Assembly (NCBI GenBank): GCA_037139415.1
Contig: JBAXGN010000035.1
Location: 1 to 48,498, forward strand
DNA length: 48,498 bases
Reading direction: 5' to 3'
From: Verrucomicrobiota bacterium
GTDB lineage: Bacteria > Verrucomicrobiota > Verrucomicrobiia > Limisphaerales > Fontisphaeraceae
Part shown: one piece after another, positions 6,572-24,586 of the stretch
How positions within the stretch are numbered: the first letter of the stretch is position 1
Layout of the letters: each line of letters starts with the position of its first letter
Notes under the pieces: generated by a model
What the model was told of the DNA's origin: nothing
What the model saw: the letters and a program-made list of their open reading frames with translations, nothing else
Database searches by the model: none
Position numbers and translations under genes: made by a program

Positions 6572-7951
6572 ATGATTCATCACAACATTATGCTCGCTGC
6601 CTGCCGCCAAACGGTGGCTGGCCTTCATTATACGCTGTCTTATACGCTGTCTGGGGCACGCTGCGTGGCCGCGGGGTTGACGCTCGCCATCGGGTTGCTT
6701 TCCGCCCGTGCGGATTGGCCGCAGTTCCGCGGGCCAACGAACGACGGCCACGTCTCCGCCCCCGGCGCCAAGCCGATCGGTCTGCCCTTGCAGTGGAGCG
6801 AGACGGAAAACCTCAAGTGGAAGACGCCCATCACCGAGTTCGGCTGGTCCACGCCGGCCATCCTCAATGGCCAGATATGGATCACCATGGCGACGCTTCA
6901 GGGTAATGATTTCTTTGTGCTCCGACTTGACCCCGAAACAGGCAAGATTTGTTTTACGGAGAAACTGTTTCACTGCGATAACCCGGAGCCGCTGAGCAAC
7001 GCGACCGGTGTGAATTGTTATGCCACTCCCTCGGTCACTCTGGAGCCAGGCCGCGCTTATGTGCATTTTGGCACCTTCGGCACGGCGTGCTTGGACACCA
7101 AAACCGACCAAGTCATCTGGAAACGATCTGACGTGAACTGCCGCCACTACCGCGGGCCCTCTTCCTCGCCGGTGTTGTTTGGGAACCTGGTGATCCTGAC
7201 GTTGGACGGCGTGGATGTGCAGTACGTCACCGCACTCGACAAGCAGACGGGCAAGACCGTCTGGAAGACCGATCGTTCCTTCCGCTGGGACGACCAAAGC
7301 GACCCCACCGCCTCCACAATGATCCGTGACGGAGATCGGCACAAGGCGCACAGCACACCGCTGATTGTCAATGTCAACGGCCAATACCAGATGCTGAGCA
7401 CCGCCGCGCGGTCAGCCTACGCGTACGATCCCCAAACCGGAAAAGAGCTTTGGCGCATCCATCACGATTGCTGGTCCGCCGCCCCCATGCCGGTGTATGG
7501 CGAGGGATTGGCCTTTCTCATCACCGGCTCGGGCAAGACCCAATTGCTGGGCGTCCGCGTGAACGGCCAGGGGGATGTGACCGACACGCACGTGACGTGG
7601 CACTTCGATACGAGCGTTGCGCGCACGGCGTCACCTATTCTGGTGGACGGGCTGCTCTACATGGTTGCGGATGACGGCGTAATCATCTGCCTCGAAGCCG
7701 CCACCGGAACCCAAGTCTGGAGGCAACGGCTCCCCGGCAAATACGCGGCCTCGCCCATTTGCGGCGATGGACGGCTTTATTTCTGCAGCCAGCAGGGCGT
7801 GACCACGGTGGTGAAGCCCGGTCGGACGTTTGAATCGCTGGCCACCAACACGCTGGCGGGCAGCTTCATGGCCTCGCCCGCAGTGTCGGGCAAAGCGCTT
7901 TACTTGCGCACCAAAACCCACCTTTACCGGGTGGAATCCGCCGGTAAATAG
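6572..7951 (+). CDS. PQQ-like beta-propeller repeat protein
   Basis: 459 residues from the ATG at 6572 (MIHHNIMLAACRQ), whose N-terminus ends in a hydrophobic stretch and SARA-DW, a likely signal peptide. The mature start DWPQFRGPTNDG is the typical opening of verrucomicrobial/planctomycete PQQ-like propellers. Several blades carry the Trp motif: DPETGKICF, DTKTDQVIWKR, DKQTGKTVWKT, DPQTGKELWRI, EAATGTQVWRQ. Members are periplasmic or extracellular and structural; enzymatic quinoprotein activity is not implied. The leader contains a 12-nt tandem duplication (ttatacgctgtc twice, near 6630-6653) giving YTLSYTLS. Convergent with the oxidoreductase pseudogene. Confidence 0.85.
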   Translation: MIHHNIMLAACRQTVAGLHYTLSYTLSGARCVAAGLTLAIGLLSARADWPQFRGPTNDGHVSAPGAKPIGLPLQWSETENLKWKTPITEFGWSTPAILNGQIWITMATLQGNDFFVLRLDPETGKICFTEKLFHCDNPEPLSNATGVNCYATPSVTLEPGRAYVHFGTFGTACLDTKTDQVIWKRSDVNCRHYRGPSSSPVLFGNLVILTLDGVDVQYVTALDKQTGKTVWKTDRSFRWDDQSDPTASTMIRDGDRHKAHSTPLIVNVNGQYQMLSTAARSAYAYDPQTGKELWRIHHDCWSAAPMPVYGEGLAFLITGSGKTQLLGVRVNGQGDVTDTHVTWHFDTSVARTASPILVDGLLYMVADDGVIICLEAATGTQVWRQRLPGKYAASPICGDGRLYFCSQQGVTTVVKPGRTFESLATNTLAGSFMASPAVSGKALYLRTKTHLYRVESAGK

Positions 7952-7981
7952 CCATCACATCCCTGGTTTCCAGCCTTCACC

Positions 7982-8751
7982 CTAATTCTTGTTGGGTTTG
8001 GCGGCGCGCTTCTCAGCCAGGAAAACCAGGATGCCGTCGCGACGCAGAATTTCCTGCTTCAGTTCGGCAATGGGCACCCGGCGCACTTCGACTTGGCGGC
8101 GAATGGCCAGCTCGGCGGCGATGCCCGCCGCTTCTCCCAAAGCCATAAAGGTCGGCTCCACGCGAATGCTCTGGTAGCCAACATGACTGGCCGAGCAGGC
8201 CACCGGTACGAGCAACCCATTAATCTGCTTGGGCACCATGATTCGGTAGGGAAGCTGGAGCGCCGGATGGTTGACGTAAAAGTAACCCTCCCGCACTCCC
8301 GGATGCGCCGGATCGAACTTATGCACCGCATGCGAATCCCAGGCAAAGACGGCCACCGCTACCGCGTCAGGTTTGGCTGGCGGCAGACCCGTGGCGGGAT
8401 CGGGATCAGCATCCCGCTGGGTGAAGTTGTATTCACCCACGATGCGCCGACCCTGGCGGACGTACAGGTAATGGGGACGGTTGCGATGATCCATGAATTC
8501 GTCTTTGCAGAAACCGTACTGCGCGGTCTCTTGACGGAGTGATTCCGGGACTTCTGCGTCGGTTTGCAGGAACCAGAGCAGACCCTCATGGTAACCTATG
8601 CCCCTGAACGTGCTGCCGCCACCGCAGCGGCGATGCCGCCTGGCGTGGCGCCCAACACCACATCCGTTTTCAACTCCTTCGCGGCGACCGGCGCTGCGGC
8701 CAGTCCCATCAAGATAATCCCTCGTGCGAACATATAGTGTACCCGGAGCAT
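7982..8751 (-). pseudogene. FAD-dependent oxidoreductase with large internal deletion
   Basis: Two parts in different frames. The first (from the ATG at 8751) gives a signal peptide ending APVAAKE, then VVLGATPGGIAAAVAAARSG, the Rossmann FAD-binding motif of the pfam12831-type 'TPGG' oxidoreductases, and then meets a stop. From about 8600 a second frame gives the C-terminal domain: YHEGLLWFLQTDAEVPESL, RRIVGEYNFTQRD, NGLLVPVACSASHVGYQSIR, VEPTFMALGEAAGIAAELA. The residues linking the two, some 200 or more in intact relatives, are missing. Deletion plus frameshift means a dead gene. Its family usually works in sugar or uronate catabolism islands. Confidence 0.8.
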
Positions 8752-21371: not shown

Positions 21372-21621
21372 TACCAAACGTCGTTAGGGCTAGCGGGTGC
21401 TCCCTCCGCTTTGTTGGTTGATCGCGGTGTTCAGCACCACGTTCCGCAGCCAATCCTTTACGGCGGGGTATTCGCTCTCGGGGAAGGCATGGCCGATCGC
21501 TTTCATTTCGTGCATGACAAATTTCACCCCCGCGTCCTTGTTGGTTTGCGTAATCCCCTGGATTCTCTCCGGGCTATTGCTTTTCGTGCCGTAGGCCGCC
21601 AGTACGGGGTGATAGTCATAT

Positions 21622-21636
21622 AAACGTTTGTTTAAC
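21622..21636 (+). repeat. Left subterminal inverted repeat of the IS
   Basis: AAACGTTTGTTTAAC, about 5 nt inside the left boundary. Its partner is the complement of 23243-23259. The match is imperfect, with a 2-nt insertion in the right copy. Confidence 0.5.
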
Positions 21637-21720
21637 GGTGACGTCCATTAGGGTTCGTTGTCGAAGGAAAGCGCCGAGCATTTTCCCCGTGTGACCCGGA
21701 AACCGAACCGAATACGAACC

Positions 21721-22782
21721 ATGAAAAATAAAGACAAAAAGACCAAACCGCTTGGAATAAAAGACCTCTATGCCGCCGTGGATTTGCACGGTGACAATGG
21801 ATATTACTGCGTGATCAATGACCGGGACGAATGCGTCTTTGAGCAACGTCTGCCCAATGATCTACCCAAGGTGCTCAAAGCCCTGGAACCCTATCGGGAA
21901 CGCCTGGCCAAAGGGATCGCCGTCGAGTCCACCTTCAACTGGTACTGGCTGGTGGACGGACTGCAGGCGCACCAGTACACCGTGCAGTTGGTGAACACCA
22001 CCCAGGTGCAGACCTATAGCGGGCTCAAATCCGCCGATGATCAAAGTGACGCCTTTTGGCTGGCGCATTTGCAACGCCTGGGGATCCTGCCCACGGGGTA
22101 TATTTACCCGCTGGCCCAACGTGGCGCGCGCGATCTGCTGCGGCGCCGGATGCTGCTGGTGCAACAACGCACCGCCCAGCTGTTGAGTTTCAAATGCCTG
22201 ATTGAGCGGCAAACGGGCCGGATGATTTCCGGCAACCAAGTCAAGGCGCTGGAACCGGAGGAGGTGGGCCAATGGGTGGCGGGCGTCGAAGTGGAACTGA
22301 TGGGGCAAACCAGTTTGCGGATGATTGAGTTTATCGGGACGCAGATTCGCAGCCTGGAAAAAGCGGCGCAGGCCAAAATTAAACTGCTGCCCGACTACGA
22401 CCGGCTGAAACAAATTCCGGGGATTGGCGAAATCTTGAATCTGGTGATCATGCTGGAGACCGGGCCAATCACCCGCTTTGCCGGGGCGGGCCAATACGTG
22501 TCCTATTGCCGGGGGGCGAAATCCGAGAAACTCTCCAACGGCCGCAAGAAGGGGGAGAACAACCGCAAATGCGGCAACAAGTATCTGGCGTGGGCGTGGA
22601 TGGAGGCGGCGAATTTCGCGCTCCGTTACAGCCCGGAAATCAAGCAGTGGTACCAACGAAAACTGGCGCGGTGCGGCAAAGTCGTGGTGGCCCGCAAAGC
22701 GTTGGCAGCCAAGCTGGCCAAAGCGGCGTACTACATGCTCAAAAACCAGGAGGCGTTTAAACTGGAAAAACTCTTGGGCTGA
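21721..22782 (+). CDS. IS110-superfamily transposase (DEDD)
   Basis: 353 residues. The N-terminal RuvC-like domain shows the DEDD residues: Asp21 in AAVDLHG, Glu69 in AVESTFNWYW, Asp107 and Asp110 in SADDQSDAFWLAHL. The C-terminal Transposase_20 domain shows LKQIPGIGEILNLVIMLETG, RFAGAGQYVSYCRG and GENNRKCGNKYLAWAWMEAA; the Ser in KLSNGRKKG or nearby is a candidate for the second active-site serine. These enzymes recombine circular donor and target DNA guided by an RNA from the element's non-coding end. The ATG at 21721 is preferred; 21 codons upstream are open. The frame is intact, so the element may be active. Confidence 0.92.
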   Translation: MKNKDKKTKPLGIKDLYAAVDLHGDNGYYCVINDRDECVFEQRLPNDLPKVLKALEPYRERLAKGIAVESTFNWYWLVDGLQAHQYTVQLVNTTQVQTYSGLKSADDQSDAFWLAHLQRLGILPTGYIYPLAQRGARDLLRRRMLLVQQRTAQLLSFKCLIERQTGRMISGNQVKALEPEEVGQWVAGVEVELMGQTSLRMIEFIGTQIRSLEKAAQAKIKLLPDYDRLKQIPGIGEILNLVIMLETGPITRFAGAGQYVSYCRGAKSEKLSNGRKKGENNRKCGNKYLAWAWMEAANFALRYSPEIKQWYQRKLARCGKVVVARKALAAKLAKAAYYMLKNQEAFKLEKLLG

Positions 22783-22788
22783 ATTTTG

Positions 22789-22858
22789 GGTTGCGGCTGG
22801 AAACCAGCTAAGGGGTTGGTAACCAAACCAGTGGTTTGATTGGAAACCGGCCGCAACC
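22789..22858 (+). ncRNA. Candidate start of bridge/seek RNA
   Basis: Seven nt after the transposase stop, GGTTGCGGC (22789-22797) pairs with GCCGCAACC (22850-22858). Inside are small hairpins: CTGGAAACCAG, GGTTGGTAACC and CAAACCA-G-TGGTTTG (perfect 7-bp arms, 22824-22838). This gives a multi-branch fold. The rest of the 488-nt non-coding end is GC-rich and open to further pairing (e.g. CCCTATCAGGG at 22922-22932). In IS1111-like elements the guide RNA comes from the region downstream of the transposase, which fits. No guide loop was matched with certainty to the target. Confidence 0.4.
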
Positions 22859-23082
22859 TGTCCTTTAAAAACGGCGCGAACGAGGCCGGCATAATTTTAC
22901 CGTGTTGCCCAGTCCAGGAGTCCCTATCAGGGTGAACGCTCGGCGGCGGCAACGCGGCCAGCGAGTCACGCGTTTGAATGAACCTAATGAACCTGGACTG
23001 GTACGAACGATTTTCTGGCCTTGCGCAAGCGAGGTGGGGGCGGCTCGGGTTGGCGGGGCAGGGAGCGGCGCTAGATCCAGAT

Positions 23083-23270
23083 GAATGACCGACAAGACGG
23101 TTGACGGCCCCGGGAGTTACGGGCGGTTGATCGTTGGAACCAGGACCGAGAAACGAACGGCGTAACCATGGATATGAACGGGCCAGTGCAAGCGCAGAGT
23201 GAGTCAAAAAAGAAAACTTTTGATCGCGGAAGAATTTTGCTTGTTGACAATAAACCTTTAATGAATGCCC
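23083..23270 (+). repeat. Right-end segment of the IS shared with 11323-11510
   Basis: The final 188 bp of the element, including the right subterminal repeat (23243-23259). A second copy without transposase lies 11.8 kb upstream. Confidence 0.75.
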
Positions 23271-23888
23271 CTTAAGCAGTGCGAGCAGGTCTGGCTTCAG
23301 TAATTGCGCACCGCTTTCCACAAAAATGAAAGCCGAGAATCGCTTCAGCACTTCCCCATCAGACTGCACGATCATCCGGGCCGTGGCATACGACCCATTG
23401 GAAAATCCGCCCAGCACACTGTGGGTCGGTTCAGTATTCGGCACGAACTGGCCCAACTTGTCGAGCATCTGCTTGTGTAGCGACCACATATATCTGCAAT
23501 CGGCATCGGTTAGGCCCAGCGTCGTCGGGGCGTTGCCTTCGGCTTTGTATTTGAACAGCGGCAGGTCCACGCAGATGAAATCCCTGTCCGCGACCAGCTT
23601 CCGGGCGGTATCGGGATTGTTGCCGTTGCCGCCGCTGCCGCCTTTGAGAAAGATCAACAGCGGAAATCTTGCCCTGGCATTGTAGTTGGTGGGCAGGAAG
23701 ACCGTCATGGAAGGCCTTGCGGTGTTCTTGGAGTCAAGCAGGCGGGCCATGGTAGGCGGCATTTCCGGAAATTCTACCGTGAAGCTTTTGCCGGGTGCCA
23801 CCTGCGGAGCACGCGGTTGAGCCATTGCCGCCACGGCACCCGAAGCCACCAGGAGGGCGGTGAGTAAAAAAACGGCAACTTTATTCAT

Positions 23889-24586
23889 GTTCATCTTGTT
23901 TCTATTGTTTATAAGCGGGTGGCAAATAAAATTCAATCTGGTAAAATTGGAAAAACAGTTCCTGGTTTGTGGTTCCTATAGCATTTTCATAAACTGCGTA
24001 GCCGCACGACGTCAGTCGGCGCTGATATTTCAAAGGCAAATACTGTGCGAAATATTGATTTTCTCGGCTACGTCATTATTTAAATCGCGCTAGCGTATCG
24101 AGTGGCGGGGGTGGCGGAAGGACGGAACAACAACTAAAACTGACCGTTGCCGGTCGGCGTGTTGAAAAAGCAAAGTCTTATCAATTTCTGCACCGTCTCA
24201 CCCCGTAGGAAACGGGGTGCCAGACGGATGGGCTTTTCCGGTGCGGGCACGGAGCGCGCCAATATGGGCTTAAGGGCCAGGCCCGCTGGTGTATTTACGC
24301 GCTTTGGCCTTAAAATTGGCCGCCCACCGCTTCGCGGACTCCGGGTGCCACCGACGTCCCCAGTTTTCAATCCCAACCGCCGCCATTTCGCTCGCCAAAA
24401 CTGCCGTCTCCCGCTCCCCAAAAAATTACGTGCGGTTTGGGGGTAACTTATCCAATTGACTTTCAACCAGGTAGTTCATATAAGAGCCTCATTCAGTTGG
24501 TGCAGGTAAAGTAATGCTTGGCCTGAGTCTGAATGTGCCCGTGGGTGGGAATAAAAAGTGTGCGTGGCAGGATGGTCACTTGAAGA
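23889..24586. other. Intergenic region with a strong hairpin, no gene seen
   Basis: AT-rich to about 24110, then GC-rich. A perfect 8-bp hairpin CACCCCGT-AGGAA-ACGGGGTG lies at 24199-24219. The overlapping frames on both strands (about 100 codons) have repetitive, Arg/Pro-rich content and look like an extragenic repeat, not protein. Confidence 0.4.

Follow-up and report, generated by a model that had tools for sequence, protein, structure and literature searches.

Guide RNAs encoded in the non-coding ends of IS110 and IS1111 elements have been known since 2024, and IS110-type recombinases constitute a new class of programmable DNA-insertion tools. Copurification with the recombinase and a requirement for movement characterize both seekRNAs and bridge RNAs. 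In the sections of the IS621 reports covered here, the RNA pairs with bottom strands through its left guides and with top strands through its right guides; once exchanged, the top strands are caught by two handshake bases that follow the right guides (PMC11208160, PMC11208158). IS1111 elements, according to the portion of the seekRNA report considered, have extensions of 7 bp on the left and 3 bp on the right and a single seekRNA of 70 to 100 nt, within which the guide order is reversed relative to IS621 (PMC11187229). The same portion notes frequent errors in the recorded ends of elements whose RNA is 3', along with a possible difference between their target recognition and that of the IS110 type. 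Many IS1111 bridge RNAs have potential donor-binding bases in a multiloop, as described in part of PMC11208160. We compared with these systems an insertion in a 48,498-nt stretch (the window) of contig JBAXGN010000035.1 from a Verrucomicrobiota bacterium. It is best read as an RNA-guided, ISGsu4-like element of the IS110 superfamily, with a TG core and with its guides in a 3' non-coding RNA; from the sequence comparisons described below, the probability of this reading is put at roughly 0.85.

The recombinase gene and its relatives

21721 to 22782, plus strand: transposase (recombinase) gene, ATG at 21721, stop codon at 22780 to 22782, 353 amino acids (aa), with a DEDD RuvC-like and an IS110 C-terminal domain

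A first-pass annotation had described an IS110-superfamily element whose transposase has intact DEDD residues and whose insertion broke a hydrolase frame, and these descriptions hold; the recombinase gene is open, and the broken gene lies on the minus strand. The transposase matches Pfam families PF01548 (DEDD_Tnp_IS110) and PF02371 (Transposase_20) and scores 161 bits (cut-off, 140) with NCBIfam model NF033542, named "IS110 family RNA-guided transposase." Alignment with IS4321 points to D21, E69, D107, and D110 as the DEDD residues. In a 33-row alignment, E69, D107, and S272 are invariant, and D21 and D110 are conserved at 90% or more. Both domains and the conserved serine of the IS110 superfamily are present, and S272 sits in an SNG motif. 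The best PDB matches of an AlphaFold2 model (pLDDT, 86.8) are bridge RNA complexes of the IS621 and ISCro4 recombinases, with TM scores of 0.61 to 0.66 by query length. Identity is 44% to 52% to aligned relatives and 24% to 26%, over part of the length, to the IS4321 transposase, and the window forms a long branch (0.94) in the transposase tree. The GL-P----S(T)G motif was not found in the window or in the seven relatives compared with IS4321, which have SNG, SNH, or SNN without GL-P.

A scan of GTDB genomes yielded 254 relatives, and the best 80 (44% to 53% identity in the best segment) were kept. The group name comes from the plasmid annotation of relatives, which two plasmid records label "IS110-like element ISGsu4 family." The window element belongs to the group by transposase similarity and by the RNA modules matched by covariance models R1 and R2 (see below). 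In the host's order, 18 of 320 genomes, the window's own included, hold a relative at E ≤ 1e-60, and the host assembly (7.9 Mb, 378 contigs, 98% complete) matched the transposase once. Seventy-five loci scored above the end-score cut; 15 that did not show the layout were removed by eye, which left 60 including the window. After L077, L098, L041, L042, and L056 were also excluded and the rest thinned to <90% identity, 46 elements and the window remained. Minus-strand relatives from the host's order were left out of the end search and entered solely as a hold-out, whose loci are partly dependent (L107 and L108 have an identical module 1, and two genomes contribute two loci each).

Probable element ends and TG core

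21612 to 23267, plus strand: whole insertion, with one core copy (the right one) counted; an equivalent cut is 21610 to 23265
21610 to 21611, plus strand: left copy of the core TG
21612 to 21620, plus strand: left end outside the inverted repeat, ATAGTCATA (AGTCATA in the clade layout, AT in the component test)
21621 to 21632, plus strand: left subterminal inverted repeat, TAAACGTTTGTT
23244 to 23249, plus strand: -35 box TTGACA; the TG-joined circle gives TTGACA-N17-GATAGT
23249 to 23260, plus strand: right subterminal inverted repeat, AATAAACCTTTA
23261 to 23265, plus strand: right end outside the inverted repeat, ATGAA (mostly ATGGG in relatives)
23266 to 23267, plus strand: right copy of the core TG, placed by the TG/TG count and the circle junction

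The insertion most likely spans 21612 to 23267 (1,656 bp) with TG on both sides, as suggested by an empty site, target copies, circle promoters, and the rejoined host gene, all of which favor a cut 6 bp longer than the one that the published IS1111 rule gives. Applied to the window, that rule (7 bp left, 3 bp right) returns 21614 to 23263. The common layout of the relatives, ...CTGAT/AATCATC-TAGCCG...CGGCTA-ATG/GGTGACCCC (slashes at the 7/3 ends), is followed by the window as GTGAT/AGTCATA-TAAACG...CCTTTA-ATG/AATGCCCC. The subterminal inverted repeats pointed out by the first-pass annotation are confirmed, with agreement at 10 of 12 positions in the window and at 7 to 12 of 12 in the kept relatives; repeats of IS1111 elements are 11 to 13 bp and perfect or near perfect. 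The 7- and 3-bp extensions are replaced in the window by 9 and 5 bp plus the shared TG. Dinucleotides at the two ends of the 60 elements were TG/TG in 52, TG/CG in five, and CG/CG in one, and two others differ. The CG/CG element, L054, also has CG in its left guide and represents a natural core change.

For an element carried by a Paraburkholderia plasmid (AP028203), a plasmid from Caballeronia (NZ_CP084287) contains the empty site, reading ACACCGAT-TG-TCGACGATC where the occupied site reads ACACCTAT-TG-AA[IS]GG-TG-TCGACGATC. Two of the three plasmid empty-site searches returned merely the source record's own halves. An intact copy of the target (22 nt, at most 3 mismatches) was present in the flanks of 9 of 55 loci under the TG join, with L081 matching at all 22 bases. 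When 49 cuts were compared in a grid, the ones that take out 6 bp in total yielded 3 to 11 loci and any other at most one. For the circular form, joining the ends at TG puts a -10 box of at least 4/6 at a 17-nt spacing after the -35 box in 29 of 47 elements. The loci with an extra copy of the rejoined target in their flanks are L026, L044, L050, L066, L079, L081, L085, L092, and L100. Since many elements share targets like AGACC-TG-ACCCC, the target itself may be a dispersed repeat.

These results bear on whether the window simply holds a standard IS1111 element of 1,650 bp (21614 to 23263), in which the seekRNA of module 1 does everything and the downstream non-coding region carries no guide. 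In favor of this view, the 7/3 extension and the seekRNA size are features reported in the part of PMC11187229 considered, the clade's inverted repeats fit the 7/3 layout, and module 1 alone holds the two best target guides. In addition, the -10 box of the window's 7/3 circle is 5/6, though at 19 nt; in the TG circle it is 4/6 and the spacing 17 nt, and for the window alone the promoter test comes out even. However, the 7/3 join leaves none of the 55 loci with a target copy, 6 bp of the 7/3-joined sequence are missing from the empty site, and the clade's 17-nt circle promoter is lost (1/47 versus 29/47). Furthermore, the block downstream of module 1 covaries with the right end and the right target (z 8.1 and 7.4) and has a conserved fold, which together make a standard IS1111 element improbable. 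The 7/3 ends and a pattern derived from them, GGTTTGATNNNNCCCCTTA, were dropped in the course of the analysis, superseded by the TG core after the empty-site, core, and target tests.

21390 to 23936, minus strand: hydrolase-like host gene, interrupted; rejoined at TG it reads ...LLKGHPVLAAYG...

The first-pass annotation had placed the ends at 21618 and 23270 (1,653 bp, no target duplication), with GATAGTC/CTTAAG as the target and the hydrolase rejoined as ...LLKDYHPV..., on the ground that the broken frame fixed the insertion. The rejoined frame is indeed open, but it is equally open after the other two cuts tried (1,650 and 1,656 bp), and an open frame is therefore not enough to place the ends. 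Against the homologues L121, L122, and L123, the rejoined hydrolase scored 436, 259, and 469 with the TG join; 424, 254, and 458 with the 7/3 join; and 420, 258, and 458 with the 21618-to-23270 cut. The best join against all three is 21611/23268 (equivalently 21609/23266) rather than 21617/23271, which taken strictly is an outcome that the annotation had named as counting against it; these are distant homologues and not an empty site of this gene. Two of the three read LLKGKPFLMV and LKGKTVMMV at the junction. The earlier ends are also at odds with the end layout of the relatives and with the guides, and they can hardly be maintained. They and the target given with them are off by 3 to 6 bp, the absence of a duplication was not confirmed, and the target supported here is CGGGG-TG-CCCCTTA. 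"Hydrolase" is the word of that annotation; the homologues in the alignment are unannotated, and the N-terminal 221 aa of the host gene gave no Pfam or NCBIfam match at E ≤ 0.001. L123, on contig C81 of the same genome, is a hydrolase-like paralogue with a 280-aa open frame, 46% identical over the N-terminal part.

Conserved RNA structure of the non-coding end

22783 to 22858, plus strand: RNA module 1 (target binding), closing stem 22789 to 22800 with 22847 to 22858; model R1, with pair covariation
22899 to 23132, plus strand: RNA modules 2 and 3 (multiloop part), module 2 stem 22909 to 22918 with 22992 to 23001; model R2

The long non-coding region downstream of the transposase gene that is typical of IS1111 elements is present, measuring 485 nt from the stop codon to the end of the core in the window and 348 to 498 nt (to the 7/3 right end) in 59 relatives. 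Covariance models R1 and R2 were built from 41 and 40 of the 46 relatives, respectively, with the window excluded. R1 matches the window at 22783 to 22854 (E 6.4e-12; next best in the window, E 0.37) and R2 at 22899 to 23132 (E 5.5e-19), with no other match up to E 10. For module 1, 85.8% of alignment cells were paired, versus 19.3% to 45.8% with slid partners, and both-sided changes occurred in 9 of 10 pairs; for modules 2 and 3, the values were 92.8%, versus 30.6% to 39.8%, and 25 of 34 pairs. Pairing was scored on alignments not fitted to the structure, yet the structures were derived from the same related sequences, and for this reason the hold-out matters. Each model matched 18 of 19 transposase loci of the host's order, none of which had been used in the models, and the remaining locus (L117) ends inside the transposase gene. 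The single-sequence fold of the 491-nt stretch is unexceptional (z -1.1, with 10 of 100 shuffles as good). Judged by conservation and covariation, and not by fold energy alone, the RNA fold is real.

In the family model, the guide-bearing stretches are largely unpaired and lie in an internal loop. Of the nested fold that had been noticed directly after the stop codon, the outer stem (22789 to 22800/22847 to 22858) falls in the conserved stretch, and the three small hairpins are not the conserved element. A covariance search against homologous non-coding ends had been proposed at that stage, with the lack of a conserved fold as the outcome that would count against a guide RNA; R1, R2, and the hold-out all show conservation. 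Cross-matches, which a duplicated module would lead one to expect, were seen as well: R1 hits module 2 weakly in six loci (E 0.01 to 0.49), and R2 hits module 1 in two others or the same (E 0.0013). Rfam returned nothing at the gathering threshold in the whole window and one chance match inside the gene (E 1.3). No R1 or R2 match at E ≤ 1 was found in 50 kb of plasmid R751, which carries two IS4321 transposase genes.

Guide sequences covary with the flanking DNA

An exact copy of the 9 bases preceding the 7/3 left end lies 41 to 61 nt past the stop codon in 21 of 60 elements, and in many elements it is preceded by the complement of the right flank. The 9-nt stretch agreed with the element's own left flank at 7.73 positions, versus 5.32 after shuffling (z 13.4; 45 elements), and the own flank was best or tied in 35 of 45. 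The components were scored on 43 or 44 nonredundant elements with 10,000 shuffles, the window standing outside these statistics; the z values ignore relatedness, and the core itself varies too little for a shuffle test. The 5-nt left-target guide gave 3.89 matches versus 1.98 shuffled (z 11.8, n = 44). The 7-nt right-target guide gave 5.72 versus 4.23 (z 11.0, n = 43), with the better of two registers taken in observed and shuffled values alike; a 1-nt bulge in this guide was considered and dropped after the two natural registers emerged. The donor block matched the last two bases of the right end at 1.91 versus 1.66 positions (z 8.1, n = 44). The RNA thus carries a complement of the top strand 5' of a match to the bottom strand, both from the non-coding region, as in seekRNAs.

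In the two positions that follow the left-target guide and its core, the RNA agrees with the first two bases of the left end (z 7.8; control with the right target, z 2.2). The corresponding two bases that follow the donor block and its core agree with the right target (z 7.4; control with the left end, z 0.0). Element pairs were taken from separate branches of the transposase tree and compared where their DNA bases differ: the RNA base changed in the same way in 108, in the opposite way in 2.5, and not at all in 58. These values are means added up across mutually dependent positions and base pairs, and the right-guide register was picked per element, which favors matches. It is conceivable, if doubtful, that the handshake signal reflects shared ancestry only, with a chance association of left-end base and RNA base within a few subclades, since the tree holds just 5 DNA changes for the left end and 9 for the right target. 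However, every independent pair in which the RNA changed did so in the same way (same:opposite:unchanged, 5:0:0 for the left end and 7.8:0:4.2 for the right target), and the wrong-partner controls stayed at the z values of 2.2 and 0.0 given above.

In the hold-out, the best upstream match of the left guide stood directly before the conserved left end in 14 of 18 elements, and the mean best match was 7.72, versus 6.69 for other loci. Guide and core agreed at 7/7 in L003, L104, L106, L109, L111, L114, and L116, at 6/7 in six, and at 4/7 in L110. The right guide of L113 predicts an unusual right target, ACGACTG, which is present at 7/7 after CTAATGGG-TG. Module 2 also tracks the left target, though less closely than module 1, with z 7.8 at offset +1 (side peaks, 3.1; initial register, -0.9) and tree pairs of 29.9 same, 1.3 opposite, and 31.8 unchanged. 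L025 and L026, whose non-coding ends are 91% identical outside module 1 and whose left targets differ, present a natural reprogramming of one module only. Overall, covariation with the flanking DNA yields most of the guide code, for which about 45 relatives were needed. Very probably, the non-coding end is the source of a guide RNA for both target and donor, as had been proposed from the window alone. The accompanying idea of deriving a guide-target rule from this locus is sound in that the rule is testable, but with the left guide and core at 4/7 it could hardly have been found from a single locus.

Probable guides and target of the window element

21605 to 21609, plus strand: left target CGGGG, paired 2/5 plus one U.G wobble with left-target guide TGGTT
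22809 to 22815, plus strand: right-target guide TAAGGGG, complement of CCCCTTA at 7/7; the next base, U, may wobble with the core G
22832 to 22840, plus strand: left-target guide TGGTT, core TG, and handshake AT, the latter being the first two bases of the left end
22924 to 22932, plus strand: module 2 right-guide position T2, CTATCAGGG; weak (family z 3.8 with rough parsing; window 3/4 at best)
22970 to 22976, plus strand: module 2 left-guide position B2, GCGTTTG, in 5/7 agreement with TGGTTTG of module 1
23007 to 23015, plus strand: hairpin loop ACGATTTTC, candidate right-donor guide that would pair with the left end; weak
23081 to 23089, plus strand: left-donor guide ATGAA, core TG, and AC; ATGAATG is identical to the right end plus core (23261 to 23267)
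23268 to 23274, plus strand: right target CCCCTTA, 7/7 with the right-target guide

The donor guide with core and handshake, ATGAA-TG-AC, agrees with the right end and right target, ATGAA-TG-CC, at 8 of 9 positions, and the AA of this right end, which recurs in the donor guide, is absent from all 44 elements of the component test. GCGTTTG of module 2 is nearer to the left guide than to the occupied site. Both modules call for a left target with GTT-TG at its end, and the site has GGG-TG, which suggests a tolerated off-target insertion or a later drift of the guide. Genome wide, TGGTTTGCCCCTTA with at most 3 mismatches occurs at 533 places, and the reversed pattern at 921. An equally good match at a random position has a probability near 3 in 100,000 (533 of ~15.8 million start points), and the relation between guides and site is unlikely to be chance, though the best genomic site was not taken.

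The copy may alternatively be decaying, its guides once used and the element now immobile, with the present site reached in another way, for example, by co-insertion or gene conversion. The single match in the 7.9-Mb assembly, the mismatches of the left guide, and the occupation of a site that is not the genome's best would fit such a history. Nevertheless, the recombinase gene is open with its conserved residues, the ends and promoter boxes are present, and the right guide and the donor guide with core each agree at 7/7; decay is considered unlikely.

Several observations weigh against an RNA-guided, TG-core element as described here. The whole case is built on sequence, and the ends entered it through a score that favors the clade's left- and right-end motifs, with 15 of 75 loci removed by eye. 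In the window, TGGTT-TG-AT agrees with CGGGG-TG-AT at 6 of 9 positions plus one U.G wobble (guide itself 2/5, with core 4/7), one handshake base of the donor guide is mismatched (AC versus CC), and the -10 box of the circle scores 5/6 (spacing, 19 nt) with the 7/3 ends and 4/6 (17 nt) with the TG ends. Among the genomic matches listed, 42 sites have 2 mismatches and none fewer, and the rejoined occupied site has 3. The left-end handshake depends on about 5 changes in the tree, and its first base is mismatched (AA versus TA) in 6 of the 14 hold-out elements with a correctly placed left guide. The hold-out right guides as a group were no better than the control (5.11 versus 4.93); several of the contigs compared are cut short, and the script misread at least two of the guides (L105 and L111). 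Evidence for the right-donor guide is weak (z 2.8 to 3.7), with a left end that hardly varies. In the close pair L025 and L026, the module 1 guide changed with the target and module 2 did not.

Proposed mechanism

Under the RNA-guided reading, the excised element would circularize around the TG core and thereby form the promoter TTGACA-N17-GATAxT, as the computed junction sequence suggests. Transcription from this promoter would run through the recombinase gene and on into the 3' non-coding RNA. The covariation suggests that the two bases past the target guide match the element's left end and those past the donor guide match the right target. Such handshakes would hold the bottom strands in recombined order after strand exchange. 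Recombination at TG would insert the element in one orientation, here into CGGGG-TG-CCCCTTA, breaking the hydrolase-like gene.

Because the guide order is reversed and the handshake signal lies behind the left guides, an exchange of the bottom strands first is the simplest reading. The arrangement would be a mirror image of IS621 (reversed guides, left-guide handshakes, bottom strands first), to which two homologous target-reading modules are added so that the target is read twice; to this more detailed model we assign even odds.

Comparison with IS621, IS1111, and the relatives

The window element shares with IS621 the recombinase fold, a dinucleotide core common to target and donor (seen here in the core counts and empty sites), separate target and donor guides, and handshakes matching the other partner. 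Unlike in IS621, the RNA lies downstream rather than upstream of the gene, the guide order is reversed, the core is TG instead of CT, and the clade has two target-tracking modules. At the positions scored, the handshake signal lies behind the left guides in the clade and behind the right guides in IS621, and in both it is 3' of the loop's second guide. For the donor, the left guide is clear (z 8.1) and the right guide weak (z 2.8 to 3.7).

With the IS1111 elements ISEc11, ISPa11, and ISKpn4, as presented in part of PMC11187229, the element has in common the downstream non-coding region, subterminal inverted repeats, a circle-junction promoter, and an RNA carrying the top-strand match first and the bottom-strand match second. 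The clade differs in lacking GL-P----S(T)G, in its extensions of 9 + TG and 5 + TG, and in its downstream modules with a donor guide, although this guide may have a published counterpart in the IS1111 bridge RNAs, to judge from the portion of PMC11208160 covered. The clade works like a bridge-RNA or seekRNA element but should not be filed as IS1111 proper, because neither the 7/3 extension nor the GL-P----S(T)G motif was found. The ISGsu4-like relatives have the same end layout and RNA modules and a transposase 44% to 52% identical to that of the window; the window stands apart by its right end, ATGAA where relatives mostly have ATGGG, by the matching change in its donor guide, and by a different target. 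The window element is a useful outlier in that its right end and its donor guide depart jointly from those of all other elements compared.

As far as seen, the TG core with corrected ends for the clade, the left-guide handshake, and the second target-tracking module appear to be new. In the open-access literature, mostly at the abstract level, no description of a mirror-image handshake or a doubled target module was found; among the open-access papers listed, none mentioned "ISGsu4," and PMC11208158 alone combined "handshake" with IS110. The clade makes both points raised in the part of PMC11187229 considered testable. Its ends and core are likely to be exact, its target code and the greater part of its donor code can be read from natural covariation, an empty site provides a check, and the bottom-strand handshake is a sharp mechanistic prediction.

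Other observations

The second-best match of R1 in the window (7929 to 7987, minus strand; E 0.37) is probably due to chance. No right end was found for the element L135 (NZ_AP028999), and close behind it lies another transposase gene of the IS110 family. L139 (DQ115814, 857 to 1759) encodes a transposase 50% identical to that of the window in a 1,788-base record labelled Cyanobacteria phage AS-1, and host or other contamination is a possible origin. L040, L041, and L042, on three contigs of one genome, are identical over at least 400 bases to the left and at least 900 bases to the right of the transposase match, which may represent a longer repeat or an assembly duplicate.

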